From NCBI RefSeq assembly GCF_001021045.1, contig NZ_CP011545.1, positions 558,001-622,000 on the forward strand: a DNA stretch of 64,000 bases, written 5' to 3'. Under the pieces are notes generated by a model that searched no databases, was not told the origin of the DNA, and saw nothing but the letters and a program-made list of their open reading frames with translations. Positions 33,413-48,886 of this stretch are shown piece by piece; the stretch's first letter is position 1, and each line of letters starts with the position of its first letter. A program made the position numbers and the translations under genes. This DNA comes from Corynebacterium testudinoris. GTDB lineage: Bacteria > Actinomycetota > Actinomycetes > Mycobacteriales > Mycobacteriaceae.

Positions 33413-33565
33413 CTGGGGTACACCCCAATAGGGCAGTTTTAGAATTTCTGTCGCGCTAACGTGGTCGAGTCCCTGCGGCGGCGGCTTTTCACAACTTCAT
33501 GGGCGGTTCAGTTGATGCCGGTAAGGAAACCTAGAGAGGCCCTAGTAGCACGGGGGATGAGTTTA

Positions 33566-34159
33566 TTAAAGGCCGAAGGCGCCGCCGCTGACGAGGATGA
33601 AGATACCCAGGCCGATCAAGACGATAGGGAACAACACATGCTCCCAGCGTTCGAGAATCTCCGCGATGGGCGGACGGGTGGCCACGAACTTCGCCAACAG
33701 GACCAGGCCCGCCACCAGAATCAGAAAGACAACGCAGTAGATGATAACGGTGGCGGTATCCACGTTGAGAAAAACCGGGACATAGACGCCGATATTGTCG
33801 CCACCGTTGGCAAAGGTCACCCCGGCGACGGTCAAGACGCTTACGTTCTTTCCGCTGACTTTCGCGTCATCGTCGTCATCGTCTCCCTGCCAGGCTTGCC
33901 AGGCCGCCCACAGCCCCAGGGTCAGGGGGATCAGCCCGAAGTAGGGGATCGCCTCGGTGGGCAGGAAAGCATCCGCCCCTAGGGTGACCAGAATCGCGGC
34001 TGCGAGGATGCCCGCGAAACCAAGGTACTGCCCGGCCAGGATCCGAAGTGTGGTCCCTGCTTGGCCGGCCCCACGGGCGAAGAACAGAGAGAGCACGATG
34101 ATGTCGTCGATATTGGTGGCGATAAACAGACCAACCGCCCCCAGGAGACCAGTTACCAC
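33566..34159 (-). CDS. cadD: CadD family cadmium resistance transporter
   Basis: A 197-residue membrane protein with five or so helices. The repeated acidic motifs TNIDDIIVLSLFF (about 15-27) and NGGDNIGVYVPVF (about 117-129) are characteristic of CadD cadmium transporters. A cytoplasmic loop has a run of six Asp. The GTG at 34159 overlaps the cmtR stop by 7 nt, so the metal sensor and pump are translated together. It probably exports Cd(II) (possibly Zn or Pb). Confidence 0.85.
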   Translation of the reverse strand: MVTGLLGAVGLFIATNIDDIIVLSLFFARGAGQAGTTLRILAGQYLGFAGILAAAILVTLGADAFLPTEAIPYFGLIPLTLGLWAAWQAWQGDDDDDDAKVSGKNVSVLTVAGVTFANGGDNIGVYVPVFLNVDTATVIIYCVVFLILVAGLVLLAKFVATRPPIAEILERWEHVLFPIVLIGLGIFILVSGGAFGL

Positions 34160-34518
34160 TTCCTGTTCCCCTCTCCGGTGGCGCACCCGGGCACGTCACA
34201 TGCCGAGTCAATACACGGGGCATTCTCGTCGGCAGCCAGAGTGGTATCCAGCAGTGAGTTCAACGCCTGGACAAGATGGGCGTCGACGATCTCGTAGCGG
34301 GTCTTCCGTCCCTGCGGTTCGGCGACCACAATTCCGCAGTCCCGTAGGCAAGTGAGGTGGTTCGACACATTTGACCGCGTCAGTTCCAGCTCCCGGGCGA
34401 GAGCGGCCGGGTAGGCCGGGCCACCCAGCAGGGTCAGGAGAATACGGGATCGGGTGGGATCGGCCATCGCCCGACCCAATCGGTTCATCACGTCCAAGCG
34501 CGAAGCAATAGTCAGCAT
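34153..34518 (-). CDS. cmtR: CmtR-type ArsR/SmtB regulator (Cd/Pb sensor)
   Basis: A 121-residue winged-helix repressor. Starting at the ATG at 34518, the cysteines fall at 57, 61 (TCLRDC in the recognition helix) and 102, the same positions as the Cd/Pb ligands of Mycobacterium tuberculosis CmtR. Extra Cys107 and Cys112 sit in the tail. The longer in-frame N-terminus is not used: TATAGT lies 7 nt upstream on the minus strand, so the mRNA is probably leaderless. It controls its own operon with cadD. Confidence 0.9.
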   Translation of the reverse strand: MLTIASRLDVMNRLGRAMADPTRSRILLTLLGGPAYPAALARELELTRSNVSNHLTCLRDCGIVVAEPQGRKTRYEIVDAHLVQALNSLLDTTLAADENAPCIDSACDVPGCATGEGNRKW

Positions 34519-34548
34519 ACACTGAACTATACAGCTGTTACTGAACTG
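34519..34548 (-). promoter_or_regulatory. cmtR-cadD promoter/operator
   Basis: On the minus strand a TATAGT -10 box ends 7 nt before the cmtR ATG. The plus-strand text has two ACTGAAC words (34521-34527 and 34540-34546) around ACAGCTGT. The second cmtR copy at 40.6 kb has a related CATGTACTGACCATACAG just before its start, so these are probably CmtR sites. Confidence 0.52.
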
Positions 34549-34652
34549 TTGCAACGAGGGTCGAACGTCGGCCCGACGGCGATGTGTGGGACACCAGCGC
34601 CCTTCGGTACTGTCTGTGTCGAAATCGATCGTATAAGTGATGGGAGAACACT

Positions 34653-35270
34653 ATGACACTTATTGACTACATACGGTTCTCGAAAGCGGACGGATCATAA
34701 ACCACCGATCTTCAGCGCGATGCCCTACTCCTCGCTGGCGTGGATCCAGATCACATCTATGAGGACAAGGCGTCGGGCAAAAAAGAAGATCGACCAGAAT
34801 TAGCATCGTGCCTGAAAGCACTGCGTCCCGGTGACACCTTGCTCGTGTGGAAGCTCGACCGGTTGGGCCGGAATCTTCGGCACCTGGTCAACATTGTCCA
34901 CGACCTCACCGCCCGCGGCGTGGGGCTGAAAGTACTGACCGGTCAGGGCGCGGCGATCGATACGACTTCGGCTCAGGGCAAGCTCGTCTTCGGCATTTTC
35001 GCCGCACTCGCAGAGTTCGAACGCGAACTGATCTCCGAGCGCACCATAGCTGGTCTCGACTCCGCCCGAGCCCGTGGACGCAAGGGAGGCCGGCCCTACA
35101 AGATGACCCCTGCGAAGGTGCGCCTGGCGATGGCGTCGATGGGGCAACCGGAAACCAGCGTCGCGGCGCTCTGCAAGGAACTCGACATCACCCGCCAAAC
35201 TCTCTATCGGCATGTCTCCCCGACGGGGGAACTGCGCGAGGACGGTCGGAAACTGCTCATAGGTAGTTGA
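34653..35270 (+). pseudogene. Tn3-type serine resolvase/invertase with in-frame stop codon
   Basis: The frame from the ATG at 34653 reads MTLIDYIRFSKADGS, then TAA at 34698-34700 (codon 16). It continues as TTDLQRDALLLAGVDPDHIYED with no further stop to 35270. The catalytic Ser10 lies before the stop. The downstream part has the conserved core (VWKLDRLGRNLRHL, EFERELISERT), a GRKGGRP linker and a helix-turn-helix (SVAALCKELDITRQTLYRH). Expected codon 16 is CAA or CAG, so a single C-to-T change explains the break. Restart at the ATG at 34740 would give a product without the nucleophile. Confidence 0.85.
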
Positions 35271-35327
35271 GTGGAGAAGGGGCGGGCTCGCACATCCTGA
35301 TTTCTCAGTCCTTTTGCGCCATGGCCT

Positions 35328-35342
35328 TATATATAGAGGTAT
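35328..35342. repeat. 15-bp repeat TATATATAGAGGTAT, copy 1
   Basis: The identical 15-mer occurs at 40957-40971. Both copies lie 57-58 bp after a resolvase 3' end, marking a duplicated module. Confidence 0.8.
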
Positions 35343-35362
35343 ATGGGTCATGACTGTCAGGC

Positions 35363-35392
35363 TTGACCTTCAAGTTAACTCGAAGGTATAGA
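35363..35392 (+). promoter_or_regulatory. MerR-type promoter with dyad in the spacer
   Basis: The -35 TTGACC (35363-35368) and -10 TATAGA (35387-35392) are separated by 18 bp. They enclose the near-perfect dyad ACCTTCAAGTTAACTCGAAGGT (35366-35387). This is the classic layout in which a MerR protein untwists an overlong spacer on metal binding. Confidence 0.8.
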
Positions 35393-35400
35393 GTGTGGCT

Positions 35401-35847
35401 GTGCGTATTTCAGAAGTCGCGGCAAGGTCGGGTCTTCCCGCGACCACGCTGCGTTATTACGAGTCGGTCGGGCTGGTGGAGGCTGTCCGCAGGCTCAACG
35501 GCTACCGCGATTACGATGACAGCGTGTTGGAGCGGTTGGCGTTTATCGCTGCGGCTAAACAGCTGGGTATGTCCCTGCCCGATATCGCTGACCTACTGGC
35601 GGTGGTCGATCACGATAGCTGTACCCGCGTCCGTGACGTGCTCCACCCTCAGCTGGTCCAACGCCTACGTGAGGTCGATGACCACCTGGCGAACCTACAG
35701 GTTCTGCGCGACCGACTCGACGACGCCGCCACCCGTCTGCGGGCCTGCCCCGACAGTCAGGCCCCCTGTCGCTCCGAGTGCGTGCTGCTCGACCATCAGT
35801 CTGCGACCTGCCCCCATCCCCTTAACCGAAAAGAAGGACCACTGTAA
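35401..35847 (+). CDS. MerR family metal-responsive regulator
   Basis: A 148-residue regulator with an N-terminal MerR helix-turn-helix (RISEVAARSGLPATTLRYYESVGL), the dimer helix, and a C-terminal Cys-rich end (Cys at RACPDS, PCRSEC, TCPHP), probably the inducer site. I use the GTG at 35401, 8 nt after the -10 box; the GTG at 35395 would add two residues. It lies 2 bp before the BASS permease gene and shares its mRNA, so the permease is the likely target. The inducer is unknown; arsenic- or antimony-like ions are plausible. Confidence 0.85.
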   Translation: MRISEVAARSGLPATTLRYYESVGLVEAVRRLNGYRDYDDSVLERLAFIAAAKQLGMSLPDIADLLAVVDHDSCTRVRDVLHPQLVQRLREVDDHLANLQVLRDRLDDAATRLRACPDSQAPCRSECVLLDHQSATCPHPLNRKEGPL

Positions 35848-35849
35848 CC

Positions 35850-36827
35850 ATGCCGCGCATCATTGAGTGGTGGGACAAATACCAGATCCCGCTGTATCTC
35901 GCTGCCCTCGCCCTCGGAGCGCTCACCGGTTTGAGTGTGCCCGACACCGCCCCGTCCTTCGAGCTGGCGATCAACCCTGTGCTCATGGTGCTGCTGTATG
36001 CCACGTTCCTGGGCGTGCCGCTGACCAGGGTCGGCCAAGCGTTGCGTGATGGTCGTTTCCTGGCCGGTTTGACGGTGCTGAACTTCCTCATCGTCCCGGT
36101 CGTGGTCTATGCACTGTCCTGGTTCGTTGCTGATGACCAGGCCCTGCTGCTAGGTGTGCTGCTTGTGCTGCTGGCCCCGTGCATTGACTACGTCATCGTC
36201 TTCTCCGGTCTGGCGGGCGCCGCCCACGACAAACTGTTGGCCGCGGCCCCGCTGTTGATGCTGCTGCAGATGCTGCTGCTGCCGGTCTACCTACGCCTGT
36301 TTGTTGGTCCGGGCTTGTTTGAGGTTATTGATCTGGCCCCGTTTATCGAGGCGTTTTTCCTGCTGATCGTCGTACCCCTGGCCCTGGCCGGGCTCACCCA
36401 GGTTCTGGCCGCCCGGTTTAACTCCGCCCGGCAGACCATGGTGTTGATGGAGGCGTTGATGGTGCCGCTGATGATGCTCACCCTCGCCGTGGTCGTCGCC
36501 TCCCAGATCGACGCCGTGCGCACCGACCTCACCTCGCTGTTGCGGGTCATCCCGATCTACATCATCTTCCTGATCGTGATGGTTCCCCTCGGTATCCTCA
36601 CCGCACGCGTTCTGAACCAGGATGTCCCGGCGACCCGGGCGACGGTGTTTTCCGGTGCCACCCGCAACTCTCTGGTTGTCCTGCCCCTGGCTCTGGCCCT
36701 GCCGGAGAGCCTCGCACTGGCCGCAGTTGTCGTGGTCACCCAGACCCTGGTCGAACTGGTCGGCATGATCATCTACGTCCGGGCCATCCCCCGCCTGATC
36801 CCGGCTACAGTGCCAGCCCCGGTCTAA
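35850..36827 (+). CDS. ACR3-like / BASS superfamily permease, island copy
   Basis: A 325-residue membrane protein with about ten helices, closely similar along its length to the permease at 5845. It shares INPVLMxLLYATFL, LVLLAPCIDYVIVFSGLAGA with the conserved Cys, LMVPLMMLTL and ATRNSLVVLPLALAL. It is probably a metalloid or oxyanion exporter in the group labelled arsenic resistance protein. A GAAAAGAAGGA ribosome site lies upstream. It is cotranscribed with merR, whereas the chromosomal copy is next to a PadR gene. Confidence 0.82.
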   Translation: MPRIIEWWDKYQIPLYLAALALGALTGLSVPDTAPSFELAINPVLMVLLYATFLGVPLTRVGQALRDGRFLAGLTVLNFLIVPVVVYALSWFVADDQALLLGVLLVLLAPCIDYVIVFSGLAGAAHDKLLAAAPLLMLLQMLLLPVYLRLFVGPGLFEVIDLAPFIEAFFLLIVVPLALAGLTQVLAARFNSARQTMVLMEALMVPLMMLTLAVVVASQIDAVRTDLTSLLRVIPIYIIFLIVMVPLGILTARVLNQDVPATRATVFSGATRNSLVVLPLALALPESLALAAVVVVTQTLVELVGMIIYVRAIPRLIPATVPAPV

Positions 36828-36969
36828 CCACCGCACCCCATCAGCAGCCCCTTTCAGTGCTACCCACTGAAGCTGGGCGCCATCGCTTCGCGACGCTCCT
36901 CTGGGGACGATGTTTTCCGGCAGATTTCTCGCCAAATGTGTCACCTTCCCCGAGCTGGGACACTCTGGT

Positions 36970-37611
36970 TTAGATGAGGGTGGTCCAATAGTCCCAGAAC
37001 CGGTGACTGATCAAGATGATGATGGCCAGGACCCAGACGGTGAGTACCACCCCGTGATAGCTCGTGGCGATGCGGATGGCCGTGCGTGCCCACGCCGGTC
37101 CCGTGTCTCGGAGTAACTGGAGGTTAACAAGGGTGGTGTACCAGAACAGGGGGATCGTCACCGCCCATACCACCATGCAGTACGGACACAGGGCACCGAT
37201 GACATACAGACTCTGATAGATCAGCCAGTGCACGAACACGACCGCGAAGCTCACGCCGGCCTGGGTGGCGACCCGGAACCAAGGACGGAAACCTGCACCA
37301 GCGAGGATGGCTGCGCCAACGACCGCTATCGCGGCAAAGCCCGCGATCCCGATCACCGGATTGGGGATGCCGAACGCCTCGGCCTGCGGGGTGGTCATCA
37401 CCGATCCGCACGACAGGATCGGGCCGATGTTGCAGGTGGGGATGTAGTCGGGGTTTTTCAACAGCTCAATCTTCTCGACCAGCAGCACCACAGCGGCGAT
37501 AAGTCCGATCACCCCGCCGCCGAGCAGCAGGACTCCCAGCCGCCGCCCGGCCATCGGGGCGGCCGACACGGTCTGGGCGGCGGTGTCGGAGCAGTCCCTC
37601 AGGTCAGTCAT
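36970..37611 (-). CDS. Vitamin K epoxide reductase (VKOR) family protein
   Basis: A 213-residue membrane protein with about five helices. The conserved loop Cys pair is in the NIGPILSCGSVM region, and the active CxxC is LCPYC in a membrane helix. Bacterial VKOR reoxidises a DsbA-like thiol oxidase by passing electrons to menaquinone. The ATG at 37611 overlaps the stop of the DsbA-like gene by 8 bp, a tight pair. In corynebacteria such a pair makes disulfides in exported proteins; inside a metal island it may protect or mature metal-exposed proteins. Confidence 0.9.
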   Translation of the reverse strand: MTDLRDCSDTAAQTVSAAPMAGRRLGVLLLGGGVIGLIAAVVLLVEKIELLKNPDYIPTCNIGPILSCGSVMTTPQAEAFGIPNPVIGIAGFAAIAVVGAAILAGAGFRPWFRVATQAGVSFAVVFVHWLIYQSLYVIGALCPYCMVVWAVTIPLFWYTTLVNLQLLRDTGPAWARTAIRIATSYHGVVLTVWVLAIIILISHRFWDYWTTLI

Positions 37612-38251
37612 TGAGGACTGCTTCCACGCTGGCGTGCAGGTCACTTACGCTGACCGGGTCCAAGCGCTGGCCGTCGAGGAAGAACGTCGGGGTGCCGGTG
37701 ACCCCAACGGACTGGGCATCGTGCTGGCTTTGTTCGATCCGGGCCAAGGTGGCAGGGTCGTCGACATCTTTCCGGAAGCGGTCCATATCCAACCCCAGGT
37801 CTTCGGCGTAGCCGAAGAAGGTGTCCTTTTGGGAGGAGGACTGGTGGCCCCACTCGTGGTCGGTCTCGAACAGTTTCTGGTACATCTGCTCGAACTGTCC
37901 CTGCTCACCGGCAGCTTCGGCCGCGAGGGCGGCGTTGACAGAGTTGGCGTGCAGCGGCATGTGCCGCACCACGAAGGTCACCCGGTCGCCGTATTCCGCG
38001 CGCAGATCTTCGATCACAGGGTAGAGGGCAATGCAGCTTTCGCATTCGAAGTCGAGGAACTCGACAAAGACTGCCTCCTCGCCGTCGGACAGGCGTGGAC
38101 TGTCCTCTCGCACCAGCAGCTCAATCGGGACGCTCTCCCCGGTCAGGCCTTCAGGCTCGGGGCGGTCAGGGCCGGTCAACACCATCAGGGCGACCAGGAT
38201 GATCGGGACAATGGCCACCAGGGACAGCGAGAGAATCGCGTTTTTGCTCAC
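37604..38251 (-). CDS. Membrane-anchored DsbA family thiol oxidoreductase
   Basis: A 215-residue protein. The N-terminal hydrophobic segment (about 6-26) is a signal anchor. The thioredoxin fold has the active motif FECESC (Cys70/Cys73), the insert helices, and the cis-Pro region GVTGTPTFFLDG. It introduces or rearranges disulfides outside the membrane and is reoxidised by the VKOR protein encoded next to it. The CESC active site differs from E. coli DsbA (CPHC) and matches actinobacterial thioredoxin-fold oxidases. Confidence 0.9.
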   Translation of the reverse strand: MSKNAILSLSLVAIVPIILVALMVLTGPDRPEPEGLTGESVPIELLVREDSPRLSDGEEAVFVEFLDFECESCIALYPVIEDLRAEYGDRVTFVVRHMPLHANSVNAALAAEAAGEQGQFEQMYQKLFETDHEWGHQSSSQKDTFFGYAEDLGLDMDRFRKDVDDPATLARIEQSQHDAQSVGVTGTPTFFLDGQRLDPVSVSDLHASVEAVLND

Positions 38252-38294
38252 GGCAGGATTCTACTTCCAAAAAAGAGACAGATCGGTCACCAGG

Positions 38295-40259
38295 TCACAC
38301 ATGAGGGCCGGCATGGGTGAGCTCCGACGTAGACAGTGTGCCAGCAGCCACTGGCCGTGCGGTAGTTGCGGTCCGGGCAGCGCGTAGACCATTGGCAATG
38401 ACGATAACCTCTGCGACCTCATGGACCAAGACAACCGCAGCTAGTCCCAACACACCAGTGATCGCCAGCGGCAGCAGCACGATGATGATCGCCAGGGACA
38501 GCACGATGTTCTGGTTGATGATGGTGCGCCCCCGTCGGGCATGGTGCAGGGCACGCGGAATCAGACGCAGGTCATCACCGGTAAAGGCAACATCCGCGGA
38601 CTCGATCGCCGCATCCGATCCCTTCGCTCCCATGGCAATCCCGATATCGGCGGTAGCTAGGGCGGGGGCGTCGTTGATACCGTCACCGATCATCGCCACC
38701 GGCCCCCGGCCTGCCAGGTCAGCCACGGCCTGAGCCTTATCCTCCGGGCGCAGCTCGGACCGGACATCCGTAATACCGGCCTCGTGGGCCAGAGCATCGG
38801 CGGTGCGCCGGTTGTCACCGGTGAGCATGGTAATCCCGAAACCCTCGTCCGTCAGGGACTGAATGACCTCGGGGGTTTCCGGACGGAGTTCATCGCGCAC
38901 CCCCACCGCACCGACCGGGTGGTCGTCACGGTAAACGATGACCACGGTCATACCCTGGCTCTCCAGGGTTTCGACCTGCCCGACCAAGGGGCCAGGGGAC
39001 AGCCAGCGGGGACTACCGACCTTAATCTGCGTCCCGTCGATCACCCCGGTGATCCCCTGCCCCGCAGTCTCGTCAACCTGCTGGGCAGTCGGCGCCTGGG
39101 GTGCTGCGGCGGTAATAGCGGCGGCCAGCGGGTGGGTGGAGTGATCCTCGAGCGCGGCAGCCCAGCCGAGGACATCTGCCCGACTGATGCCATCGATGGT
39201 GAGCACCTCCGCAACAGTGGGCTGATTGCGGGTTAGGGTACCGGTCTTATCCAGGGCCAGGTGGCGGATGCCACCGAGGCGCTCAAAAGCGGCGCCGGAC
39301 TTGATGGCCACCCCGAACTTGCTGGCCGCCCCGATCGCAGAGACGACCGTGACCGGCACCGAGATCGCCAGCGCACACGGCGAGGCCGCGACCAGCACGA
39401 CCAGGGCACGCTCAATCCACACACCTGGATCCCCGAACAGGGACCCGATCACGGCAACGAAGATGGCCAGAATGAGCACCCCCGGCACCAGGGGGCGGGC
39501 CAACCGGTCGGCGATACGCGCGCGTTGGCCCTTCTCACTCTGCGCCTGCTCGACCAGCGCGACCACAGTGGTCAGGGAATTGTCCGTGCCTCCGGCGGTG
39601 GCCTCAACTTCGAGAGCCCCGGTGGTGTTGATTGAGCCAGCCAGCACCGCGTCACCGGGGCCGACCTCCACAGGGATGGATTCCCCGGTGATCGCCGAAA
39701 CATCCAGGCTGCTGTGCCCGGACCGGATGATTCCATCGGTGGCCAAGCGATCTCCGGCCGCCAGGCGCAACACATCCCCTGGAGCGAGGTCTTCGACCGG
39801 CACTGTGCGGGTAGACCCGCGGACAAGAATGGTCGCGGTCGAGGGGATCAGAGCAAGCAGGGACCGCAGGCCCGAGCGGGCCTTGTCCATCGCCTTATCT
39901 TCCAGCGCCTCTGCGATGGAGTAGAGGAAGGCTAGGGCGGCGGCCTCCTCGATGAACCCGAGCAGGACGGCACCGGTGGCGCTGATCGTCATCAGCAACC
40001 CGATACCCAGTTTTCCCCGGGTAAACAACCCCTTCAGCGCCCCAGGAACGAACTGGGAGGCACCCAACAACAGGGAGGCCCAGAATAAGACGAGGGCGAT
40101 CATCCCGGCATTGGGGACGAACCACTCAAGGATCAGACCAACCAGCAACGATACACCGGAGGTCACAGGAAGGAGGATAGCCCGATCACGCCACCAGGGC
40201 GTGTGCTCCTCTTCTCTGGCCATCGGTGCAGATGGTTCACAACCACAGGCAGACGTCAT
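38295..40259 (-). CDS. ctpG: P1B-type heavy-metal ATPase (CtpG-like)
   Basis: A 654-residue metal exporter. It has the N-terminal ACGCE Cys pair (Cys5, Cys7) instead of a full HMA domain, TGES (191-194), the membrane metal site SPC (293-295) in place of CPC, the phosphorylated Asp337 in DKTGT, GDGINDAPAL, and HEVAE (His613) in a late helix. SPC is typical of the CtpC/D/G classes. The ATG at 40259 overlaps the cmtR stop by 4 nt. M. tuberculosis pairs cmtR with ctpG too, so Cd/Pb export is likely. Confidence 0.9.
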   Translation of the reverse strand: MTSACGCEPSAPMAREEEHTPWWRDRAILLPVTSGVSLLVGLILEWFVPNAGMIALVLFWASLLLGASQFVPGALKGLFTRGKLGIGLLMTISATGAVLLGFIEEAAALAFLYSIAEALEDKAMDKARSGLRSLLALIPSTATILVRGSTRTVPVEDLAPGDVLRLAAGDRLATDGIIRSGHSSLDVSAITGESIPVEVGPGDAVLAGSINTTGALEVEATAGGTDNSLTTVVALVEQAQSEKGQRARIADRLARPLVPGVLILAIFVAVIGSLFGDPGVWIERALVVLVAASPCALAISVPVTVVSAIGAASKFGVAIKSGAAFERLGGIRHLALDKTGTLTRNQPTVAEVLTIDGISRADVLGWAAALEDHSTHPLAAAITAAAPQAPTAQQVDETAGQGITGVIDGTQIKVGSPRWLSPGPLVGQVETLESQGMTVVIVYRDDHPVGAVGVRDELRPETPEVIQSLTDEGFGITMLTGDNRRTADALAHEAGITDVRSELRPEDKAQAVADLAGRGPVAMIGDGINDAPALATADIGIAMGAKGSDAAIESADVAFTGDDLRLIPRALHHARRGRTIINQNIVLSLAIIIVLLPLAITGVLGLAAVVLVHEVAEVIVIANGLRAARTATTARPVAAGTLSTSELTHAGPHV

Positions 40260-40621
40260 GACTGCTGGCCTCCTTCTGTATCGCAACAGCCGGCGACCGG
40301 ACAGGCAGGGTCTAGGCAGGGGGCATCCTCATCAACGGCGAGGGTGATCTCTACCAGGGCATTGAGCGCGCGGGCCAGGTGTGCGTCGACGATCTCATAG
40401 CGGGTACGCCGCCCCTCCGGCTCGGCGACTACAATCCCGCAGTCGCGTAGACAGGCCAGGTGGTTGGAGACATTCGTCCGGGTCAACCCCAGCGTTTCGG
40501 CCAGTTGGGCCGGATACCCGGGGGATTCGAGTAGGGACAACAGGATCCGGGACCGGGTGGGATCGGCCATGGCACGGCCCAGGCGATTCATCACATCAAG
40601 ACGAGAAGCAATAGTCAGCAT
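40256..40621 (-). CDS. cmtR: CmtR-type ArsR/SmtB regulator, second copy
   Basis: A 121-residue repressor, near-identical over its first 30 residues to the copy at 34153 and with the same metal ligands Cys57, Cys61 and Cys102. Cys107, Cys112 and Cys113 are in the tail. The ATG at 40621 is chosen by this match. It overlaps the P-type ATPase start (ATGA) and so controls that pump. With two similar sensors, cross-regulation between cadD and ctpG is likely. Confidence 0.9.
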   Translation of the reverse strand: MLTIASRLDVMNRLGRAMADPTRSRILLSLLESPGYPAQLAETLGLTRTNVSNHLACLRDCGIVVAEPEGRRTRYEIVDAHLARALNALVEITLAVDEDAPCLDPACPVAGCCDTEGGQQS

Positions 40622-40694
40622 GTACTGACCATACAGTAGGTGATGACTAGTTGGCAATCCCTCTCATCACCGAGGGGCCTCTCAGAGTCGCAGG

Positions 40695-40898
40695 ATGGAT
40701 TCGCCTTGGCGTGCGAGGAAGTGCAGACGACTTCTGCGCAAACGTCTTCTGCCCCTGACAGCCTCGATGGGACAGTCCGAGACCAGTGTTGCCGCGCTGT
40801 GCCAGGAACTGGGGATTACCCGCCAGACTCTTTATCGGCATGTCTCCCCCACCGGCCAGTTGCGCGAGGGCGGGCGGAAACTTCTTGCCGGCAGCTGA
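40695..40898 (+). pseudogene. Serine resolvase remnant (C-terminal DNA-binding end only)
   Basis: About 45 codons at the end of this frame (SMGQSETSVAALCQELGITRQ ... LLAGS) match the last part of the resolvase at 34653. The upstream half is degenerate, and the catalytic domain is gone. It follows a divergent cmtR just as the first copy does. Confidence 0.8.
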
Positions 40899-40956
40899 CT
40901 TCCCGTCCACAGCGCGGGGTTACTGCCGTCTTTCCGGGGCAGTCTCGAAGGTGCCC

Positions 40957-40971
40957 TATATATAGAGGTAT
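40957..40971. repeat. 15-bp repeat TATATATAGAGGTAT, copy 2
   Basis: Identical to 35328-35342 and at the same distance (58 bp) after the resolvase remnant. Confidence 0.8.
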
Positions 40972-41061: not shown

Positions 41062-42242
41062 TCAGCTCACCGATTTGGGGCGGAACTGGAACATTGCGAG
41101 GGCGCCGATGACCGGGCCCGGCACTAACGTCAGGAAGGCGTACTGCCAGCCGACCAGGTCGGCGACCACAGCGGTGAGCTGAATGCTGACCACGGTCAGG
41201 GCGAAACCAATGGCCATCTTCGCGCTCAGTGCAGTTCCCACGAAACGGGGATCCACCACCTCTGTCATAGCGGTGGAAAACACTCCCGAGTCGGCGATGA
41301 CCGAGGCACCCCAGATACCGCAGAACACCGCCAAAACAGGGGCCGGTGCCAGAAACGCCAGGGGCGAGAGCACACAGCAGATACCACTGATGACCAGAGC
41401 AGTTGTCGCGGTATACGCTCGGCCATAGCGATCTGCTGCCCAGCCACCGATCATGCACCCGACAAATCCGAGCACACCGAGGGCGAGGAACATGACCACC
41501 TGGTCAAAGCCGTGAAACTGCGGTGAGGCAGGGGCATGGAGGACAAATATCGGCAGCCATGTCCAGACCGCGTAGAGCTCCCAATTGTGGCCGAAATACC
41601 CCAGATTCACCAGCCGAGGACCGCGTTGGCGAAACATCGTGATCATATAACCCGGGTTGAGGGTGATCCGGCTGCGGGAGATATACGGACCCGGTCGGAT
41701 GAGGGTAAATGCCAGTACAGCTCCGGTAAATCCAATGACCACGGTAACCAGCAGTACCGTGCGCCAGGGCAGCTCGACCAGGCCACCGATCAGGTGCGGC
41801 AACGTGGACCCCAGAGTCAAAGCCCCTAGGAGCAGACCCATCGCCGCGCCCCGATCCTTTGACGGCGCCCAGGAGGACATGAGCTTTACCCCGGTGGGGT
41901 AGACCGCCGCCAGAAAGACCCCGGTGAGAAAGCGCAGCACCAGGACACTGGAAAGGCCGAGATCGACAACCGCCACGAACAACGTGCTGAGGGCAGCTAG
42001 GGCAGCTCCACAACCAAGAAGTATGTGCATGGGGATTCGGTCGGTTAGGTTCAAGACAGTGGAGGTTAACGCCCCACCACGAAACCCAGTTGCACGGTGC
42101 CGGTCAGCCAGACTGACGCAGTATCACCGATACCGAATTCGGCCTGCACGCTCGGCACGACCGCGGAGACTGAAAACCAGACAGTCAGTGAGAGCACTTG
42201 TGTCAGGGCGATAAGCAGGCGTTGGACGGGCGGATATGTCAT
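41062..42242 (-). pseudogene. MFS transporter broken by a frameshift
   Basis: From an ATG at 42242 the frame encodes MTYPPVQRLLIALTQVL ... WLTGTVQLGFVVG and hits TAA at 42066-42068. One base further the frame continues as ALTSTVLNLTDRIPMH and runs to 41062, giving about 390 residues and twelve helices in all. The slip is at the GGGG run (CCCC at 42072-42075), consistent with one lost G. MFS signatures include GWAADRYGRAYT in the central loop. The substrate is unknown; neighbours suggest metalloid or organoarsenical export, but that is weak. A sequencing error could also cause this. Confidence 0.78.
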
Positions 42243-42263
42243 AGGTTGGATCTTATAGTCGTC

Positions 42264-42287
42264 GTGATCTGGTGATCTGGTGATGTG
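42264..42287. repeat. Three tandem 8-bp units (GTGATCTG, GTGATCTG, GTGATGTG)
   Basis: A short tandem repeat in the noncoding stretch between the MFS pseudogene and the arsC remnants. Confidence 0.6.
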
Positions 42288-42328
42288 TGGTGCCGATGTT
42301 CACGTGGACCAGCCGCACACCTGGGAGG

Positions 42329-42605
42329 GGGGACTTGCCTGCGTTGTGGACACAGATAAACAACTCGCTGGGGTGGGTTGTAGTGGTGTGGTCACGGCAG
42401 GGTCCTTTTCGCTGGCGGGTGGGAGGACTAGGTGCTGGTTAGCTCGGAGACGAGCGTCTGGACCCGGCTATCGATGTCATCGCGGACCAGACACATCCGC
42501 TCGAGTCCCTCGATGCCGCACTCGGAGGGCTCATCGGTGACCCAGCGTTCCAGGGAACCCTGGGCATCGGCGGGCATCTCGACCTGGTCGTCCGCGCCTA
42601 GGAGG
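42329..42605 (-). pseudogene. Decayed duplicate of the arsC-arsC junction
   Basis: This 277-bp stretch copies the junction between the intact arsC genes at 43335 and 43817. The high-coordinate part (42428-42605) encodes the last third of an arsenate reductase ([18 protein letters not shown]) with its TAG. The low part, from a GTG at 42395, encodes only the first codons of the next one (TPLQPT, then a one-base shift before CVHNAGK) and stops being homologous at about 42329. Neither piece can make an enzyme. Confidence 0.82.
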
Positions 42606-42639
42606 AACGTGCCCCACATCCAATGATGTGGGGCACGTT
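42606..42639 (-). terminator. Hairpin after the three-cysteine arsC
   Basis: A perfect 15-bp stem (42606-42620 with 42625-42639) has the loop CAAT and lies 10 bp after the arsC stop on the minus strand. There is no T-run. The arsC remnant begins exactly at its far edge. Confidence 0.8.
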
Positions 42640-42649
42640 GAACTGCTCT

Positions 42650-43282
42650 TTAGCTCTGGATGGTTTCCCAGAGTCCACTGACACGGTCGTCGATCTCCGC
42701 GATGATCTCGCGAACCTTCTCCGGCGTCTCATCGGTGGGATCAGTCAGTTCCCAGTCCAGATAGTGCTTACCGGGATAGATCGGGCACACGTCCCCACAG
42801 CCCATGGTGATGACATAATCGGCGGCACGAACCACATCATCGGTCAGCGGCTTCGGGAAAGCCCCGGCCAGGTCGATGCCACGCTCGGCCAGGACGTCCA
42901 GCACGACCGGGTGGACCTCGGAGGTCGGCAACGAACCCGCAGAGCGTACCTCCACGGATTTCCCGGCGTAGTGGGACAGCAAGGCCGAGGCGATCTGAGA
43001 GCGGCCAGCGTTATGGACACAGACGAACAGCACCTGCGGGACCGTCTTTTCGATCTTGCCCTCAGCCAGCGCCAGCGCCCGGAGACGGTCCTTGGCGAAG
43101 CGCTCCGCCAAGATAGGCAGGTGGGTGCGGATCTTGGCGGTGCGTGCCAGGGAGATATAGGACTCGAAGACGTAGCGCTCAATGGTCTCCGCAGAGAACG
43201 TTCCCTGGTAGGTGCGGGCGAGCCCTTCGGTGATGCGGGTCAGGATCTTGGTGTGCAGTTCCGGGGTTTCGGTGGTGGACAT
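42650..43282 (-). CDS. arsC: Arsenate reductase, three-cysteine type with N-terminal helical bundle
   Basis: A 210-residue protein. Residues 1-80 form helices; the low-molecular-weight phosphatase fold follows with loop CVHNAGRS (Cys88) and Cys162/Cys166 (GCGDVCP). This matches C. glutamicum ArsC1', which reduces arsenate with thioredoxin through a three-Cys relay. The ATG at 43282 follows GAAAGG. It is transcribed on the same strand as the other two arsC genes and acr3, 52 bp behind them, with its own hairpin terminator. Confidence 0.9.
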   Translation of the reverse strand: MSTTETPELHTKILTRITEGLARTYQGTFSAETIERYVFESYISLARTAKIRTHLPILAERFAKDRLRALALAEGKIEKTVPQVLFVCVHNAGRSQIASALLSHYAGKSVEVRSAGSLPTSEVHPVVLDVLAERGIDLAGAFPKPLTDDVVRAADYVITMGCGDVCPIYPGKHYLDWELTDPTDETPEKVREIIAEIDDRVSGLWETIQS

Positions 43283-43334
43283 GACAGACCTTTCCAAAGC
43301 AGTAAGGGGAGCGAAAGAGCTGGAGGGAAAAAGG

Positions 43335-43787
43335 TTAGTTCGAAGAAGAGCCGGAGAAATCAGTGATCAGTTCGGAGACGAGCCCCTGGACCCGGGTGTC
43401 GATGTCATCGCGGATCAGGCGCATGCGTTCCACTCCTTCGATGTGACGCTCCGAGGGCTCGTCGGTGACCCAGCGTTCCAGGGTGCCGCGCGCGTCGTCG
43501 GACATCTCCAGCTGGGCATCGGTACCGAGGACAATGACCCGGTCGACCGTGCGCAGTAGCTGCGGATCAATAGGTGTCGGGGTTTCGTCGGACATATCCG
43601 CCCCCATTTCGGCGATGACCTGGGTGGCCTGGCGGCTGACCTGGGCGTCTGGGGAGGTGCCAGCGGAGTGGATGGTGAGGAGATCACCGGCATACTTGGT
43701 TGCCAAAGCAGCAGCCATCTGGGACTTGCCTGCGTTGTGGACACAGATAAACAACACGCTGAGTGTGGGCTGTAGTGGTGCGGTCAC
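43335..43787 (-). CDS. arsC: Arsenate reductase, mycothiol-dependent type
   Basis: A 150-residue low-molecular-weight phosphatase-fold enzyme with the loop CVHNAGKS (Cys15) and no resolving cysteines, like C. glutamicum ArsC1/ArsC2. Those form an arsenate-mycothiol adduct that mycoredoxin reduces to arsenite. A GTG start at 43787 has AAAGGTCC upstream. It lies 29 bp behind its paralogue at 43817 in the acr3 operon. The C-terminus ends in a Ser-rich tail (FSGSSSN) absent from the paralogue. Confidence 0.9.
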
Positions 43788-43816
43788 GGCAGGACCTTTC
43801 GGCTGGCAGGCGGGGG

Positions 43817-44236
43817 TTAGTTGCTGGTGAGGTCGGTGATCAGGCCCTGTACCCGGTTGTCGATGTCATCGCGGACCAGTCGCATGCGCTCCAGGCCTTC
43901 GATGCCGCGCTCGGAGGGCTCATCGGTGACCCAGCGCTCCAGGGCGCCCCGGGCGTCGGCGGGCAGCTCCACCTGGGCATCGGCACCCAGGACAATCACC
44001 CGGTCGACGCTGCGGAGCAGCTCCGGGTCGATGCCCTTCGGGGTGCCCTGGGACATATCGGCCCCAGCTTCGGCGATGACCTCGATGGAGGCGGCATTGA
44101 GCTTGGTGCCGGGCTTGGTGCCGGCGGAATGGATCTCCAGCTGGTCACCGGCGTGCTTGTTGGCCAGGGCGGCGGCCATCTGGGACTTGCCGCCGTTGCC
44201 GACGCAGACGAACAGGACTGTTGGGTGGGTGCTCAT
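43817..44236 (-). CDS. arsC: Arsenate reductase, mycothiol-dependent type (acr3-coupled)
   Basis: A 139-residue paralogue of the gene downstream, with the phosphate loop CVGNGGKS (Cys11) and the [14 protein letters not shown] segment. The ATG at 44236 overlaps the acr3 stop (ATGA, 44233-44236), so arsenite is made and exported by co-translated proteins. The mycothiol mechanism is inferred from close likeness to C. glutamicum ArsC1/2 and from the lack of other cysteines. Confidence 0.92.
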
Positions 44237-45366
44237 GAGGTGAAGTTCTCCTTCTCGGATAAAGCAGTCTGCGGAGACGGTGTCGAGGATACAGGTAGGG
44301 TCGGATCCTGGGGGAAGAGTTTCGGTCCCAGCCACAGCATGGTGTAGACCAGGCCGACAAGCACCGGGATCTCGATCAACGGGCCGATCGTGCCGGCTAG
44401 CGCCTGTGCGGAGGTCGCCCCGAAAGTGCCGATGGCCACGGCGATGGCCAGCTCGAAGTTATTGCCCGCGGCCGTAAACGACACCGACGCCGACTGAGCG
44501 TAATTCATGCCCGACGCCTTCGCGGCAATCAGTGCGATGGCGAACATGCCGACGAAGTAGATCAACAGCGGTACCGCAAGACGCACCACGGTCCAGGGCT
44601 GGGAGGTGATCTGCTCTCCCTGCAGAGAAAACAGCAGGACGATGGTATACAGCAGGCCGATTAAGGACAACGGGGAGATGGCGGGCAGGAATTTGTTCTC
44701 GTACCAACCACGCCCCTTGACCTTCTCGCCGATGATCCGGGACAGCACACCGGCCAGCAACGGGATGCCGAGGAAGACGAGCACCGAGGTGACAATCGAC
44801 CAGAAGGAGAACTCCGCCGAGGTGGTCTCCAGACCCAGCCAGGAGGGCAGGACCTGCAGGTAGAACCAGCCCAGCACACCGAACATGATGACCTGGAAGA
44901 CGGAGTTGACCGCCACCAGCACGGCGGTGGCCTCCCGGTCACCGCAGGACATGTCCGACCAGACGAGCACCATGGCGATGCAGCGGGCCAGGCCGACGAT
45001 GATCAGGCCGGTGCGCAGTTCCGGTTCGTCCGGCAGGAAGGTCCAGGCCAGGGCGAACATCAGTGCCGGGCCCACGATCCAGTTGAGAATGAGTGAAACA
45101 CTCATCAGGCGTTTGTCAGCGGCGATTTCTTTGGTCTTGTCGTAGCGGACCTTGGCCAGCGGTGGGTACATCATCACCAGCAGGCCCAGGGCGATCGGCA
45201 GGGAGATCCCACCGACCTCCATGGAACCGAGGAAGGGGGCCAGTCCGGGGATGCCGCGGCCCAGAAGGAGGCCGAGCGCCATGGCGAGGATGATCCAGAT
45301 CGGAATATATTTGTCGAGGAAGGAAATATGGGCGGGTTGAGCCCGGGTCTGGGTGGGTGCGGTCAT
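44233..45366 (-). CDS. acr3: Arsenite efflux permease Acr3
   Basis: A 377-residue ten-helix permease. The segment [13 protein letters not shown] places Cys129, and [10 protein letters not shown] places Glu305, the two residues reported as essential in C. glutamicum Acr3. It exports arsenite using the proton gradient. It is the first gene of the acr3-arsC-arsC operon and is divergent from arsR across an 82-bp gap with a palindrome. The ATG at 45366 has no strong ribosome site but lies near AGAGGTGACGC. Confidence 0.95.
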
Positions 45367-45382
45367 GCGTCACCTCTCGGTA

Positions 45383-45402
45383 GTATTGATGTTTATCAAT
45401 AC
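45383..45402. promoter_or_regulatory. ArsR operator between acr3 and arsR
   Basis: GTATTGAT-GTTT-ATCAATAC (45383-45402) is a perfect 8-bp-arm palindrome. A weaker copy (TATATCGATGCTCGTCAATATA, about 45416-45437) overlaps the arsR -10 region TATAGT (45435-45440). Confidence 0.75.
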
Positions 45403-45448
45403 TCAAACTACTTCCTATATCGATGCTCGTCAATATATAGTGGTGGGT

Positions 45449-45796
45449 ATGATGACCGCACAGATTCTTCCCCTGACCGACCTGTCCGAGTGTTGCACGC
45501 TCGGCGCCGGCCCGCTTAATGATGATGAGGCCACCCGCTACGCCGCGCTGTTTAAGGTGCTGGCTGAGCCGGTGCGTCTGCGGATTCTGTCCCAGTTGGC
45601 CGCCGGTGGGTGTGGCCCGGTCAGTGTTAACGAGCTCACGGAACTGATGGGGTTGAGTCAGCCGACGATTTCGCATCACCTGAAGAAGATGACCGAAGCG
45701 GGCCTGCTGGAGCGCACGCGTGAGGGACGCACGGTATTGCACCAGGTGCGTCCGGCGCTGTTCGCCGAGCTGCGCACCGTCTTGCAGATCGGCTGA
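45449..45796 (+). CDS. arsR: Arsenic-sensing repressor ArsR (ArsR1 type)
   Basis: A 115-residue winged-helix repressor. From the ATG at 45449 the arsenite ligands fall at Cys15, Cys16 (SECCTLGAGPL) and Cys55 (AAGGCGPVS), exactly the trivalent site described for C. glutamicum ArsR1. The DNA helix reads SQPTISHHLKKM. The earlier in-frame ATG at 45353 is rejected because it covers the operator. It represses the divergent acr3 operon and its own mRNA, which may continue into arsO 8 bp later. Confidence 0.94.
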   Translation: MMTAQILPLTDLSECCTLGAGPLNDDEATRYAALFKVLAEPVRLRILSQLAAGGCGPVSVNELTELMGLSQPTISHHLKKMTEAGLLERTREGRTVLHQVRPALFAELRTVLQIG

Positions 45797-45804
45797 TCGC
45801 ACCC

Positions 45805-46809
45805 ATGGCAGGGCACAGCGACGACAGCTACGAAGCGATCATTATCGGCGGTGGCCAGTCGGGACTGGCCACCGCCTACTACCTGCTGCGGGCAGGCGTG
45901 AAGACCCTGGTCCTGGATGACCAGCCTGCCCCCGGCGGGGGTTGGCGGCATGTGTGGCCGTCGATGACGTTGTTTTCTACCGCGGAGTTTTCCAACCTGC
46001 CGGGTTGGCCCATGCCCGACTATGACGGGTTTCCCCCGGCTTCCCATGTGGTGGACTATCTCAGTGCCTATGAGCAGCGCTACCGCATCCCGGTGGAACG
46101 CCCCGTCCATGTGGACCGGATCGACTTCGACGATGATTGCTACCGCATCCGGGCTGGAGCGCAGTCCTGGACGGCGGACAATATTGTCGCGGCCACCGGC
46201 ACCTGGTCCGCCCCCTTCGCCCCGTCGTATCCTGGAACGTTCGCCGGCACTCACTGGCACTCGGCGAATTACCCCGGGATCGCACCCTTCCAGGGTAAGC
46301 GTGTCGCAGTGGTCGGTGGGGCGAACTCCGGCGCCCAGATCGCCGCGGACTTAAGCCGCGTGGCCGAGGTGACCTGGTACACCCGCGAGCAACCACGCTG
46401 GATGCCTGATGAGGTCGATGGCCGGGTGCTGTTTCGCCGCAACCGGCAGCGCGCCCTGGCCATTGGGCGCGGGGAACCGGATCCCGGGGCAGACTCGGAG
46501 CTCGGCGATATTGTCGTCCTGCCCGAGGTCCGTGCCGCCAGGGATTCCGGGCGCCTAAAGGCCACCCCGATGTTTAGCTCACTGGATGAGGTCGAGGCTG
46601 ATCACCTGATCTGGTGCACCGGGTTTCGCCCGGCGATTGGGCCGGTGCGCCGGCTGCTGGAAAACGGGAAACCACAATACCCGGGTCTGCATGTGGTCGG
46701 TTACGGCGACTGGACGGGCCCGGGGGCGGCGACGATCACCGGTGTCGGCCCCTACGCCAAAAAGGCCGCCCGCGACATTGCCGACTCTGTCGGCAAGACC
46801 GTGAAATGA
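45805..46809 (+). CDS. arsO: ArsO-type NAD(P)H-dependent flavin monooxygenase
   Basis: A 334-residue FAD/NAD(P) protein with IIGGGQSGLATAYYLL at the N-terminus, a second dinucleotide motif VVGGANSGAQIAA near residue 170 and the ATG-like TGFRPAIGPV near the end. It matches ArsO proteins of actinobacterial and firmicute ars operons, whose exact reaction is unclear; oxidation of arsenicals is proposed. It starts 8 bp after arsR and runs in the same direction. It ends 38 bp before the convergent second arsR. Confidence 0.86.
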   Translation: MAGHSDDSYEAIIIGGGQSGLATAYYLLRAGVKTLVLDDQPAPGGGWRHVWPSMTLFSTAEFSNLPGWPMPDYDGFPPASHVVDYLSAYEQRYRIPVERPVHVDRIDFDDDCYRIRAGAQSWTADNIVAATGTWSAPFAPSYPGTFAGTHWHSANYPGIAPFQGKRVAVVGGANSGAQIAADLSRVAEVTWYTREQPRWMPDEVDGRVLFRRNRQRALAIGRGEPDPGADSELGDIVVLPEVRAARDSGRLKATPMFSSLDEVEADHLIWCTGFRPAIGPVRRLLENGKPQYPGLHVVGYGDWTGPGAATITGVGPYAKKAARDIADSVGKTVK

Positions 46810-46847
46810 CCCGCCCCACCAGCCACAGGGGCGAGGTGACAAGGCTC

Positions 46848-47210
46848 TTAGCCCAGGTCGAGCACGGAGCGCAGCTCCTGAAACGCTGCCGGGATAACCG
46901 TGTAGTACGCCCACTTGCCCCGCTGCTCCCGGGCCAGCAGGCCGGCGTCAACCAGCTTGGTCGTGTGATGACTCACGGTGGACTGATTAACCCCCAGTGG
47001 GCCGGTCAGATCGCAGGCACACACAGACTCACACCCCTGGGAGGCGATATGCGACAGCAGGCGCAGGCGGGTGGGATCGGCCAGTGCCTTGAGCATCACC
47101 GCCAAGCGCTGCGCGCGGGAGGTATCGAGGGGCCCGCACGACAGGGAACAACACTCCCGACCATCACCGTGGTCGGGGCAGACGACCAGTTCTTCTAGCG
47201 CAGCACTCAT
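46848..47210 (-). CDS. arsR: Second ArsR family repressor, Cys-rich
   Basis: A 120-residue repressor with many cysteines: 11, 20, 21, 25 at the N-terminus and 60, 64, 66 at the helix CESVCACDL, resembling the ELCVCDL arsenite site of E. coli-type ArsR. The DNA helix is NQSTVSHHTTKLVDAG. ATG at 47210 is used; an upstream in-frame start at 47225 overlaps the operator. It is divergent from a flavoprotein gene and probably represses it. Confidence 0.88.
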   Translation of the reverse strand: MSAALEELVVCPDHGDGRECCSLSCGPLDTSRAQRLAVMLKALADPTRLRLLSHIASQGCESVCACDLTGPLGVNQSTVSHHTTKLVDAGLLAREQRGKWAYYTVIPAAFQELRSVLDLG

Positions 47211-47224
47211 GCCCCCATCATACA

Positions 47225-47238
47225 TTGACGACTGTCAA
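47225..47238. promoter_or_regulatory. Operator for the second ArsR
   Basis: TTGAC-GACT-GTCAA (47225-47238) is a perfect palindrome 15 bp before the second arsR start, in the gap with the divergent flavoprotein gene. Confidence 0.65.
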
Positions 47239-47323
47239 AGTGAAGCCTACGGTAGACATTGGCAACCATCGATATGACGAGGCCACCACCTCACTACTGA
47301 TCCGCATAGGAGATATCACCGCA

Positions 47324-48718
47324 ATGGCAACACCTCTGGATACGACATCTGCCCCTGATCCGGTCGTGGTGATCGGCGCCGGCCCGGTCGGCCTGGCCGC
47401 CGCCGCCCACCTACACGAACGTGGCCTACCCTTCCGGGTGGTCGAGCAGGGCCCGCAGGCCGGGGCGGCGATTGCCCAGTGGGGGCACACCCGGTTGTTC
47501 TCGCCCTGGGAGTACAACATCGACACCGCCGCCCGTCGCCTGTTGGAGCGCCACGACTGGAGCGCGCCACAGGATGAGGTCCTGCCCACCGGCCACGAGC
47601 TGTCCGCCGAGTATCTCGCACCCCTGGCGGCAACTCCGGAGATCGCCCCGGCGATCAGCTACGACACCCGGGTGGTGGCCATCTCCCGACTGGGCATGGA
47701 CAAGACCCGCACCGCGAACCGGGCAACCACCCCGTTCATCGCCCGCGTCGAGCACGACGGTGGCACGGTCGAGGATATTCAGGCCGCGGCAGTCATCGAC
47801 TCCTCTGGCACCTGGTCGACCCCCAACCCGCTGGGCCAGGCCGGCCTGATAGCCCCAGGGGAGTATAAGTCCCGCGAGCAGGGCCTGATCACCCAGACCC
47901 TGCCCGACGTGCTGGGCCGAGACCGCGAACGCTTCGCCGGCAAGCACATCCTGGTCGTGGGTGCCGGGCACTCCGCGGCCAATACCCTGCTGGAGTTAGG
48001 TGAGCTCGCTGAGCAGAACCCGGACACCCGGATCAGTTGGGCGGTGCGCTCGGCGGATGTCACCCACGTCTACGGCGGTGAGGCCAACGACGAGCTGGCC
48101 GCCCGCGGGGCACTGGGCTCGCGCCTGCGCCAGCTGGTGGACGCAGGACGTATCACCGTCCACACCTCCCTGACGATCACCGCCTTCGACACTCAAGGCG
48201 ACCGGCTGCAGGTCCATGGCACCACCCCGGAGGGGGAGAAAATCATTGAGGTCGACACGCTGGTACCGGCCACGGGTTTCCGCCCGGACCTGAGCATCCT
48301 CTCGGAGCTGCGGCTGGCCTTGGACCCGGCCGTGGAGGCCCCGGCCCAGCTGGGGCCGCTGATTGACTCCGAGTTCCACAGCTGCGGCTCGGTGGAACCC
48401 CACGGTGAGAAGGTACTGGCCCACCCGGAGGACAATTTCTATATCGCCGGAATGAAAAGCTATGGCCGCGCCCCGACTTTCCTTATGGCCACCGGCTATG
48501 AGCAGGTCCGCTCGATTGTTGCGGCCCTGGCCGGGGACCAGGAATCTGCTGACGCGGTGCACCTGGATCTACCCGAAACCGGGGTATGTACCACGGATCT
48601 GGGTGGGAGCTGCGACGTGCCGGCACCTGCTGGGGTGGTCTCGGAGGAGTCGTCCTCGCAGGGGTGTTGTACGCCGGCACCGCAGCTGCTCACGATCGGA
48701 CTGCCGGGTACTCACTGA
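47324..48718 (+). CDS. FAD/NAD(P)-dependent oxidoreductase with Cys-rich C-terminal tail
   Basis: A 464-residue flavoprotein. FAD-binding GAGPVGLAAAAHL lies at the N-terminus and NAD(P)-binding GAGHSAANTLLELG near residue 210, with LVPATGFRPD in the C-terminal half. The last 45 residues carry Cys422, Cys430 and the pair Cys448-Cys449, absent from ordinary members, and may bind arsenicals or serve as a redox shuttle (inference). The ATG at 47324 has AGGAGA about 10 nt upstream. Its divergent neighbour is a Cys-rich ArsR. Similar proteins occur in ars operons under no agreed name. Confidence 0.8.
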   Translation: MATPLDTTSAPDPVVVIGAGPVGLAAAAHLHERGLPFRVVEQGPQAGAAIAQWGHTRLFSPWEYNIDTAARRLLERHDWSAPQDEVLPTGHELSAEYLAPLAATPEIAPAISYDTRVVAISRLGMDKTRTANRATTPFIARVEHDGGTVEDIQAAAVIDSSGTWSTPNPLGQAGLIAPGEYKSREQGLITQTLPDVLGRDRERFAGKHILVVGAGHSAANTLLELGELAEQNPDTRISWAVRSADVTHVYGGEANDELAARGALGSRLRQLVDAGRITVHTSLTITAFDTQGDRLQVHGTTPEGEKIIEVDTLVPATGFRPDLSILSELRLALDPAVEAPAQLGPLIDSEFHSCGSVEPHGEKVLAHPEDNFYIAGMKSYGRAPTFLMATGYEQVRSIVAALAGDQESADAVHLDLPETGVCTTDLGGSCDVPAPAGVVSEESSSQGCCTPAPQLLTIGLPGTH

Positions 48719-48737
48719 ACCGAACGCTGATAGAGGG

Positions 48738-48782
48738 CAGGTGCACCACTCCGGAAAAGGGTGCTGCACCTGACCTTTTTCG
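48738..48782 (+). terminator. Terminator after the flavoprotein gene
   Basis: CAGGTGCA (48738-48745) pairs with TGCACCTG (48765-48772), followed by ACCTTTTTCG. It ends the arsenic section at the right edge of the island. The remaining gap to tusK (48783-48886) holds only AT-rich DNA and a short GC hairpin. Confidence 0.75.
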
Positions 48783-48886
48783 TACACCTTTCTAGATCGT
48801 CAGGTGTCTCCAATCTAGTGATCTAGCTTATATTTCCGCCGGAAGTTGGGCTATTTCACTTCTTCCCACCCCTGGCCGGGGGTGAG

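Follow-up and report, generated by a model that had tools for sequence, protein, structure and literature searches.

A metal resistance island at the start of tusE in Corynebacterium testudinoris may have placed trehalose importer genes behind a cadmium/lead-responsive operon

What becomes of the control of a trehalose importer when a resistance island comes to lie between its ATPase gene and its remaining genes? This question is raised by a 64,000-nucleotide stretch of Corynebacterium testudinoris NZ_CP011545.1 (558,001–622,000; the window, within which all positions are numbered), where the predicted importer genes tusE, tusF and tusG are separated from tusK by an island of metal and metalloid resistance genes of 15.36 kb. 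All four genes lie on the minus strand with open reading frames, and a sequence-only reading of the window had placed them correctly, with tusE-F-G at 30.1–33.4 kb, tusK at 48.9 kb and 15.5 kb between them. With slightly better than even confidence, it is proposed here that insertion of the island replaced the leader of tusE, and that tusEFG are now likely to be transcribed by read-through from the island’s cmtR1-cadD operon, which cadmium or lead would derepress.

The tusEFGK genes are predicted to encode a trehalose importer. TusE most closely matches, among PDB entries, the trehalose/maltose-binding protein 1eu8 and LpqY, while the best match of TusK is the trehalose-import ATPase SugC. The gene set corresponds to that of LpqY-SugABC of mycobacteria and of TusFGK2-E, the trehalose importer of C. 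glutamicum, i.e., a MalE-type solute-binding lipoprotein, two MalF/G-type permeases and a MalK/SugC-type ATPase with a TOBE domain. The Tus system was reportedly the subject of work by Henrich et al. in 2013. The C. testudinoris locus differs from both systems in that the ATPase gene is not adjacent to the others, the gap between tusE and tusK being 15,474 bp, and in that tusE lacks the leader of its relatives. In excerpts of PMC6683498 and PMC8899591, the C. glutamicum trehalose importer is located within cg0830-cg0838.

Judged by the similarity of TusE and TusK, each at 96%, the nearest genome is G029. Its site is empty: only 113 bp separate tusK from tusE, and window positions 33424 and 48782 are joined there according to both BLAST and alignment. 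Since the site is empty in this genome, the island is an insertion. Alignment to G029 continues to window position 51407, the 5' side of the TIGR03089 gene is untouched and the TIGR03089-tusK spacing is the same in both genomes. At E ≤ 1e-20, tusE matches were obtained in 141 of 171 genomes, its own included, of which five hold only a paralogue of ~30% identity; the tusE orthologue set comprised 136 genomes, including that of C. testudinoris. Among the matches listed, tusK was located beside tusE on the same strand in 91 of these 136, again counting C. testudinoris, with a gap of 71–626 bp in 87 (the longest of which arise from alignments ending early) and a median of 170 bp across all 91; the other four gaps measured 1.9, 3.8, 6.9 and 15.5 kb, the last being that of C. 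testudinoris. The 45 other tusE-bearing genomes displayed no neighbouring tusK among the matches listed, some of them being contig ends. In a set of 80 named loci, tusK was positioned within 566 bp in 57 and further away in three (3.88, 3.88 and, in Rhodococcus, 1.27 kb), while two contigs were too short. These comparisons indicate that the tusK-tusE split is the derived state, and an ancestrally separate tusK was rejected on the basis of the G029 empty site and the two gap surveys. In close relatives that lack the island, tusK adjoins tusE, and none of the matches listed from the other 241 genomes spans the island in full, which bears out the earlier supposition that it split a formerly joined pair.

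Among the 78 informative named loci, 18 have no tusK near tusE, and in 13 of these the TIGR03089 gene is found directly before tusE (L056, L059, L060, L070, L078, L079, L081, L084, L088, L089, L091, L099 and L111). The tusK gene can thus be lost or moved within the genus, where an ATPase from elsewhere presumably serves, which makes it harder to maintain that the split by itself is detrimental to the importer. Other inserts in the tusK-tusE gap, i.e., those of L093, L107 and L164 (3.88 kb), L162 (1.9 kb) and L163 (6.9 kb), comprise an opposite-strand pair encoding an ABC-F-like ATPase and an MFS protein, a gene for a secreted SOD-like protein together with another gene, and a transposase-containing block, all named by eye.

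The insertion point is a GTACACC sequence between the Shine-Dalgarno (SD) motif and the ATG of tusE, present as a single copy in the G029 empty site and as one copy at each end of the island. In an alignment of the leaders of 17 relatives, picked from those with short gaps, a TCA-TA--TT box and GAAAGGTG are located just before the tusE ATG in at least 80% of the rows; in C. testudinoris both are now found on the tusK side of the island (48782–48886), in a segment where an inverted repeat also adjoins the tusK stop codon. This displaced leader is likely to be the former tusE promoter. Among the four long-gap genomes, it is cut off in C. testudinoris only: a GAAAGG motif is retained beside tusE in G139, G093 and G142, as well as in the named loci L093 and L107, and G139 and G142 also retain, by eye, a longer leader-like sequence. 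At tusE itself, the distance from GGTG to ATG is unchanged while the preceding bases have gone from AGAAA to TTGG, and the element-derived GGGGTG may act as a replacement SD motif; its predicted pairing with the 16S tail amounts to -8.5 kcal/mol, versus -8.4 kcal/mol for the old motif.

The cmtR1-cadD pair lies directly upstream of tusE and on the same strand, with cadD ending 153 bp before tusE. The start of cmtR1 was set at the ATG at 34518, not at the TTG at 34554, and it is preceded by a promoter-like site, one such site being found in the region against 0.7 expected in shuffles. Where the start of cmtR fitted a fixed pattern, all 9 copies carry a TATA[GA]T hexamer at this position, in 8 of the 19 loci scanned (two of these eight being one place in one genome), while the -35 hexamer is less constant. 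Both cmtR1 and its paralogue cmtR2 score above the CmtR equivalog cut-off and encode cysteines at positions 57, 61 and 102, the presumed metal ligands of CmtR. The arrangement resembles the CmtR-controlled cmt operon of M. tuberculosis in that a CmtR-type repressor gene heads a metal-transporter operon, and differs from it in possessing a CadD-type transporter gene and in pointing into a sugar importer. The three cysteines are among those given for mycobacterial CmtR (PMC7863910), which is described as sensing cadmium and lead in mycobacteria (PMC10961391). Effects of zinc and hydrogen peroxide on CmtR in M. bovis (PMC7863910) and of zinc (PMC10961391) are also reported, and the inducer in C. 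testudinoris could therefore be wider than cadmium and lead. From these features we infer that CmtR controls cmtR1-cadD, with predicted binding to its own promoter.

According to the proposed sequence of events, a mosaic island would have entered GTACACC between the SD motif and the start of tusE, leaving the leader common to the relatives on the tusK side. Transcription of tusEFG would then likely proceed by read-through from the cmtR1-cadD operon, whose repression Cd(II)/Pb(II) is predicted to lift, while tusK would stay under the old TIGR03089-tusK control, so that the ATPase gene would probably no longer be co-regulated with the other importer genes. Cadmium/lead-dependent read-through from cadD into tusEFG is plausible and is the preferred prediction, although it could be dampened by weak hairpins. 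A stronger version, in which one insertion rendered the importer cadmium/lead-induced by supplying both a metal-controlled promoter and an SD motif, with the ATPase under its old control and the importer complete only under metal stress, is possible and is advanced only tentatively. The sequence-only reading had also suggested that trehalose uptake could be linked to metal stress; the link is plausible by way of cmtR1-cadD and tusEFG, but it had been attached to the wrong gene, as it is tusE and not tusK that lost its leader, a loss that probably extends to tusF and tusG.

A number of observations, including several that bear on the alternatives considered below, weigh against this proposal. 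Opening the region from the SD motif to the AUG is predicted to cost 13.98 kcal/mol, versus 10.05 kcal/mol before the insertion, owing to a GGGG/CCCC hairpin. When 80 named relatives were subjected to a crude test, an SD-like site was present in 61, and a strict TANANT box in 20 of these 61 versus 13.6% of shuffled regions, so that confidence in the -10 portion of the native leader is limited to the closer relatives. Four weak minus-strand terminator hits were obtained in 33300–34800 against 1.4 expected in shuffles, and one between cadD and tusE and another at the tusE start could stop read-through; the cadD-tusE stretch folds no better than shuffles.

It is conceivable, though unlikely in our estimation, that a constitutive promoter, located where the island ends or within tusE-tusF-tusG, drives tusEFG independently of metals. 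A single TANANT hexamer (TAAACT) at 33565, 147 nt before the tusE ATG, could represent a metal-independent promoter, but a single occurrence is close to what chance would give (0.4 expected in shuffles) and the scan returned no sigma-70-like site on the minus strand between cadD and tusE. The 131-bp spacing between tusE and tusF has room for a promoter, and according to PMC7337898 the regulator HrrA is bound upstream of tusG in C. glutamicum, so that the distal importer genes may have their own control; a promoter inside tusE-F-G would, however, leave tusE unserved.

We assign a distinctly small chance to the alternative that the insertion silenced the importer and that tusEFG are intact merely because the event is recent. 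Silencing would fit the loss of the conserved -10-like box and SD motif from tusE, the predicted hairpin at its new start and the apparent youth of the island, several stretches of which are 95–99% identical to copies in other species; loss is moreover tolerated, as 30 of the 171 genomes lack any tusE match at the 1e-20 threshold and five more hold only the 30% paralogue. A usable SD motif and a same-strand upstream operon are nevertheless present. In comparison with G029, the ratio of nonsynonymous to synonymous substitution (dN/dS) is 0.083 for tusE, 0.031 for tusF and 0.016 for tusG, and amino-acid changes on the C. testudinoris versus the G029 branch, with two outgroups, number 2/6 versus 5/5 in tusE, 1/4 versus 1/6 in tusF and 1/1 versus 1/1 in tusG. 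No excess of amino-acid changes or relaxed selection was apparent for tusE-F-G on the C. testudinoris branch, the test having little power for a recent event. Judged by their sequences, tusEFG are intact and without decay, from which the insertion is not datable; the low dN/dS may reflect merely a recent insertion. Finally, although tusK adjoins the island, the earlier suggestion that it depends on a promoter in or beside the island is rejected as highly improbable because the island lies downstream of tusK in the direction of transcription, on its 3' side, with TIGR03089 still 1 bp upstream as in G029 and the G029 alignment running on past both genes.

Table 1. Features of the tus locus and the inserted island (positions within the window)
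Feature	Position	Strand	Basis or remark
tusG	30142–30978	-	MalG-type permease; NCBIfam MalG-like match below equivalog cut-off
tusF	30975–31982	-	MalF-type permease; NCBIfam MalF-like match below equivalog cut-off
tusE	32114–33412	-	Solute-binding lipoprotein; lipobox VLAGC read directly; Pfam SBP_bac_1
Native upstream remnant at tusE, 12 bp only	33413–33424	-	Left GTACACC copy 33418–33424; G029 comparison
Island left terminus	33422–33446	+	ACCCCAATAGGGCAGTTTTAGAATT, recurrent mobile end
cadD, CadD-type cadmium transporter gene	33566–34186	-	Pfam Cad 107.4 bits, cut-off 26.2
cmtR1, ArsR-family Cd/Pb-sensing repressor by match	34153–34518	-	NCBIfam CmtR equivalog 171.8 bits, cut-off 150
cmtR1 promoter-like site	34526–34554	-	TTGCAA-17-TATAGT; ATG 7 nt after -10 box
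Serine resolvase remnant	34740–35270	+	PF00239 and HTH_7
MerR-family regulator	35395–35847	+	Matches below equivalog cut-offs
SBF/ACR3-like transporter	35850–36827	+	40.5 bits, below ACR3 cut-off of 282.8; Pfam SBF
VKOR-family protein	36970–37644	-	Pfam
DsbA/thioredoxin-like protein	37604–38251	-	Pfam
Cd-type heavy-metal P-type ATPase	38295–40286	-	TIGR01512 486.9 bits, cut-off 313.5
cmtR2	40256–40621	-	CmtR equivalog 176.1 bits, cut-off 150; 74% identical to cmtR1
Second resolvase remnant	40761–40898	+	Last 45 codons only; 87% identical to first remnant
MFS transporter without N-terminal part	41062–42054	-	Pfam MFS_1 match starting at profile position 55
ArsC-like gene	42650–43297	-	Below ArsC cut-offs
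ArsC-like gene	43335–43787	-	Below ArsC cut-offs
ArsC-like gene	43817–44335	-	Below ArsC cut-offs
ACR3 arsenite efflux transporter	44233–45366	-	TIGR00832 416.2 bits, above cut-off of 282.8
ArsR-type regulator	45353–45796	+	Profile match
ArsO flavin monooxygenase	45805–46809	+	435.1 bits, cut-off 425
ArsR-type regulator	46848–47225	-	Profile match
Second FAD/NAD(P)-dependent oxidoreductase	47225–48718	+	Pfam; convergent with tusK
Terminator-like hairpin and T run at island end	48738–48781	+	
Right GTACACC copy	48782–48788		Empty-site comparison
Displaced tusE leader	48782–48886	-	SD motif AGAAAGG 48787–48793; -10-like TAGATT 48812–48817; alignment with 17 relatives
tusK	48887–49900	-	SugC/MalK-type ATPase; Pfam ABC_tran and TOBE_2; PDB SugC 8ja7
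TIGR03089-family gene	49902–50555	-	212.6 bits, cut-off 85; 1 bp upstream of tusK

The island carries cadmium, lead-type and arsenic genes together with resolvase remnants, as had been read from the sequence, with some of the names resting on matches below cut-off. This applies to cadD in NCBIfam (111.6 bits against the subfamily cut-off of 181.65 for TIGR00779, the Pfam Cad cut-off being passed), to the ArsC-like genes (best scores of 57–68 bits against cut-offs of 157.6–215 for TIGR02691, TIGR02689 and PRK13530) and to the SBF gene at 35850. The frame of the first resolvase remnant is broken further upstream, in the N-terminal part, by an in-frame stop, and the longer open reading frame (ORF) listed over the second has no Pfam match. 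Downstream of the three arsC-like copies, arsC-like fragments at 42330–42700 probably represent a decayed fourth copy. Two duplications occur in the same order, one of cmtR (34184–34483 and 40287–40586, 71% identity) and one of the resolvase tail (35133–35270 and 40761–40898, 77% identity), which suggests that the island was assembled from related modules.

In its composition the island is a mosaic. Among the matches listed, cadD-cmtR has copies of 95–98% identity in several genomes and of 79–88% in others, cadA-cmtR2 is 99% identical in G044, the ars block matches that of G117 at 98% and, over 3.8 kb, that of G021 at 99%, and the resolvase-to-DsbA stretch is less close (81–85%), while the whole island is covered by none of those from the other 241 genomes. 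Fifty-eight plasmid records match the island, 4 at 95–99% and 42 at 60–80%, and none of these records holds 80% or more of it. Its cadD-cmtR end is 95–97% identical to that of three Rothia plasmids, its cadA-cmtR part 94–96% identical to that of three Corynebacterium plasmids and its ars block 81.5% identical to that of a C. maris plasmid, with chromosomal copies elsewhere reaching 99%; it differs from these plasmid cadmium and arsenic modules in joining several of them in one. G029, without an island at tus, harbours relatives of the cadD-cmtR cassette elsewhere on its chromosome (C1:2112872-2113944 and 2157427-2158188; 82% and 88%).

Of 242 genomes, 14 contain the left end, ACCCCAATAGGGCAGTTTTAGAATT, in 18 copies altogether, and these have 16 distinct flanks as judged by eye; 16 of the 18 are preceded by GTAC, the search pattern having begun with GTAC and allowed three mismatches overall, so that other contexts are possibly under-counted. 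In the corresponding loci (L174-L191), this mobile end leads into internal sequences of at least two kinds. GTACACC is present at both junctions of the island, but GTAC precedes the left end elsewhere too, and a target duplication is indistinguishable from a site-specific core. The right end is at GTACA, where G117 and G021 continue for ~120 bp before a transposase-like region (by eye). No inverted repeat was detected at the right end, the first 25 bases of the left end having no copy on either strand elsewhere in 33301–49000 with up to 9 mismatches, and a classical transposon with paired terminal inverted repeats was rejected, there being a left end only. A gene for a 208-residue serine-resolvase-like protein (by eye), which starts ~70 bp inside a variant mobile end in L176 (G094, 1571–2197), may hint at which enzyme mobilizes this end. 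The idea that the element habitually donates promoters was likewise rejected, as 13 cadD-type copies (12 distinct flanks, one being that of C. testudinoris) exhibit no consistent read-out into a gene. ORF calls in these flanks include, in L190, a same-direction ORF starting at the element boundary; this test is crude, tusE being unlisted in its own flank, where a longer overlapping frame won.

The insertion of an accessory resistance island into a core locus is an event of a known kind; this one is unusual in lying precisely next to a ribosome-binding site and in leading to a clear prediction. No account of this insertion at the tus locus appeared among the titles and abstract openings listed in literature searches. 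Mobile resistance islands are common, but a case whose empty site, relocated leader and newly acquired upstream operon are all resolved to single bases is a useful one. Trehalose import is important for the cell envelope of mycolic-acid bacteria. The testable prediction is that exposure to metals induces a sugar importer; if the metal link fails, the locus shows a core importer tolerating the loss of its leader, whereas a metal-linked importer, if true, could tie envelope upkeep to metal exposure.

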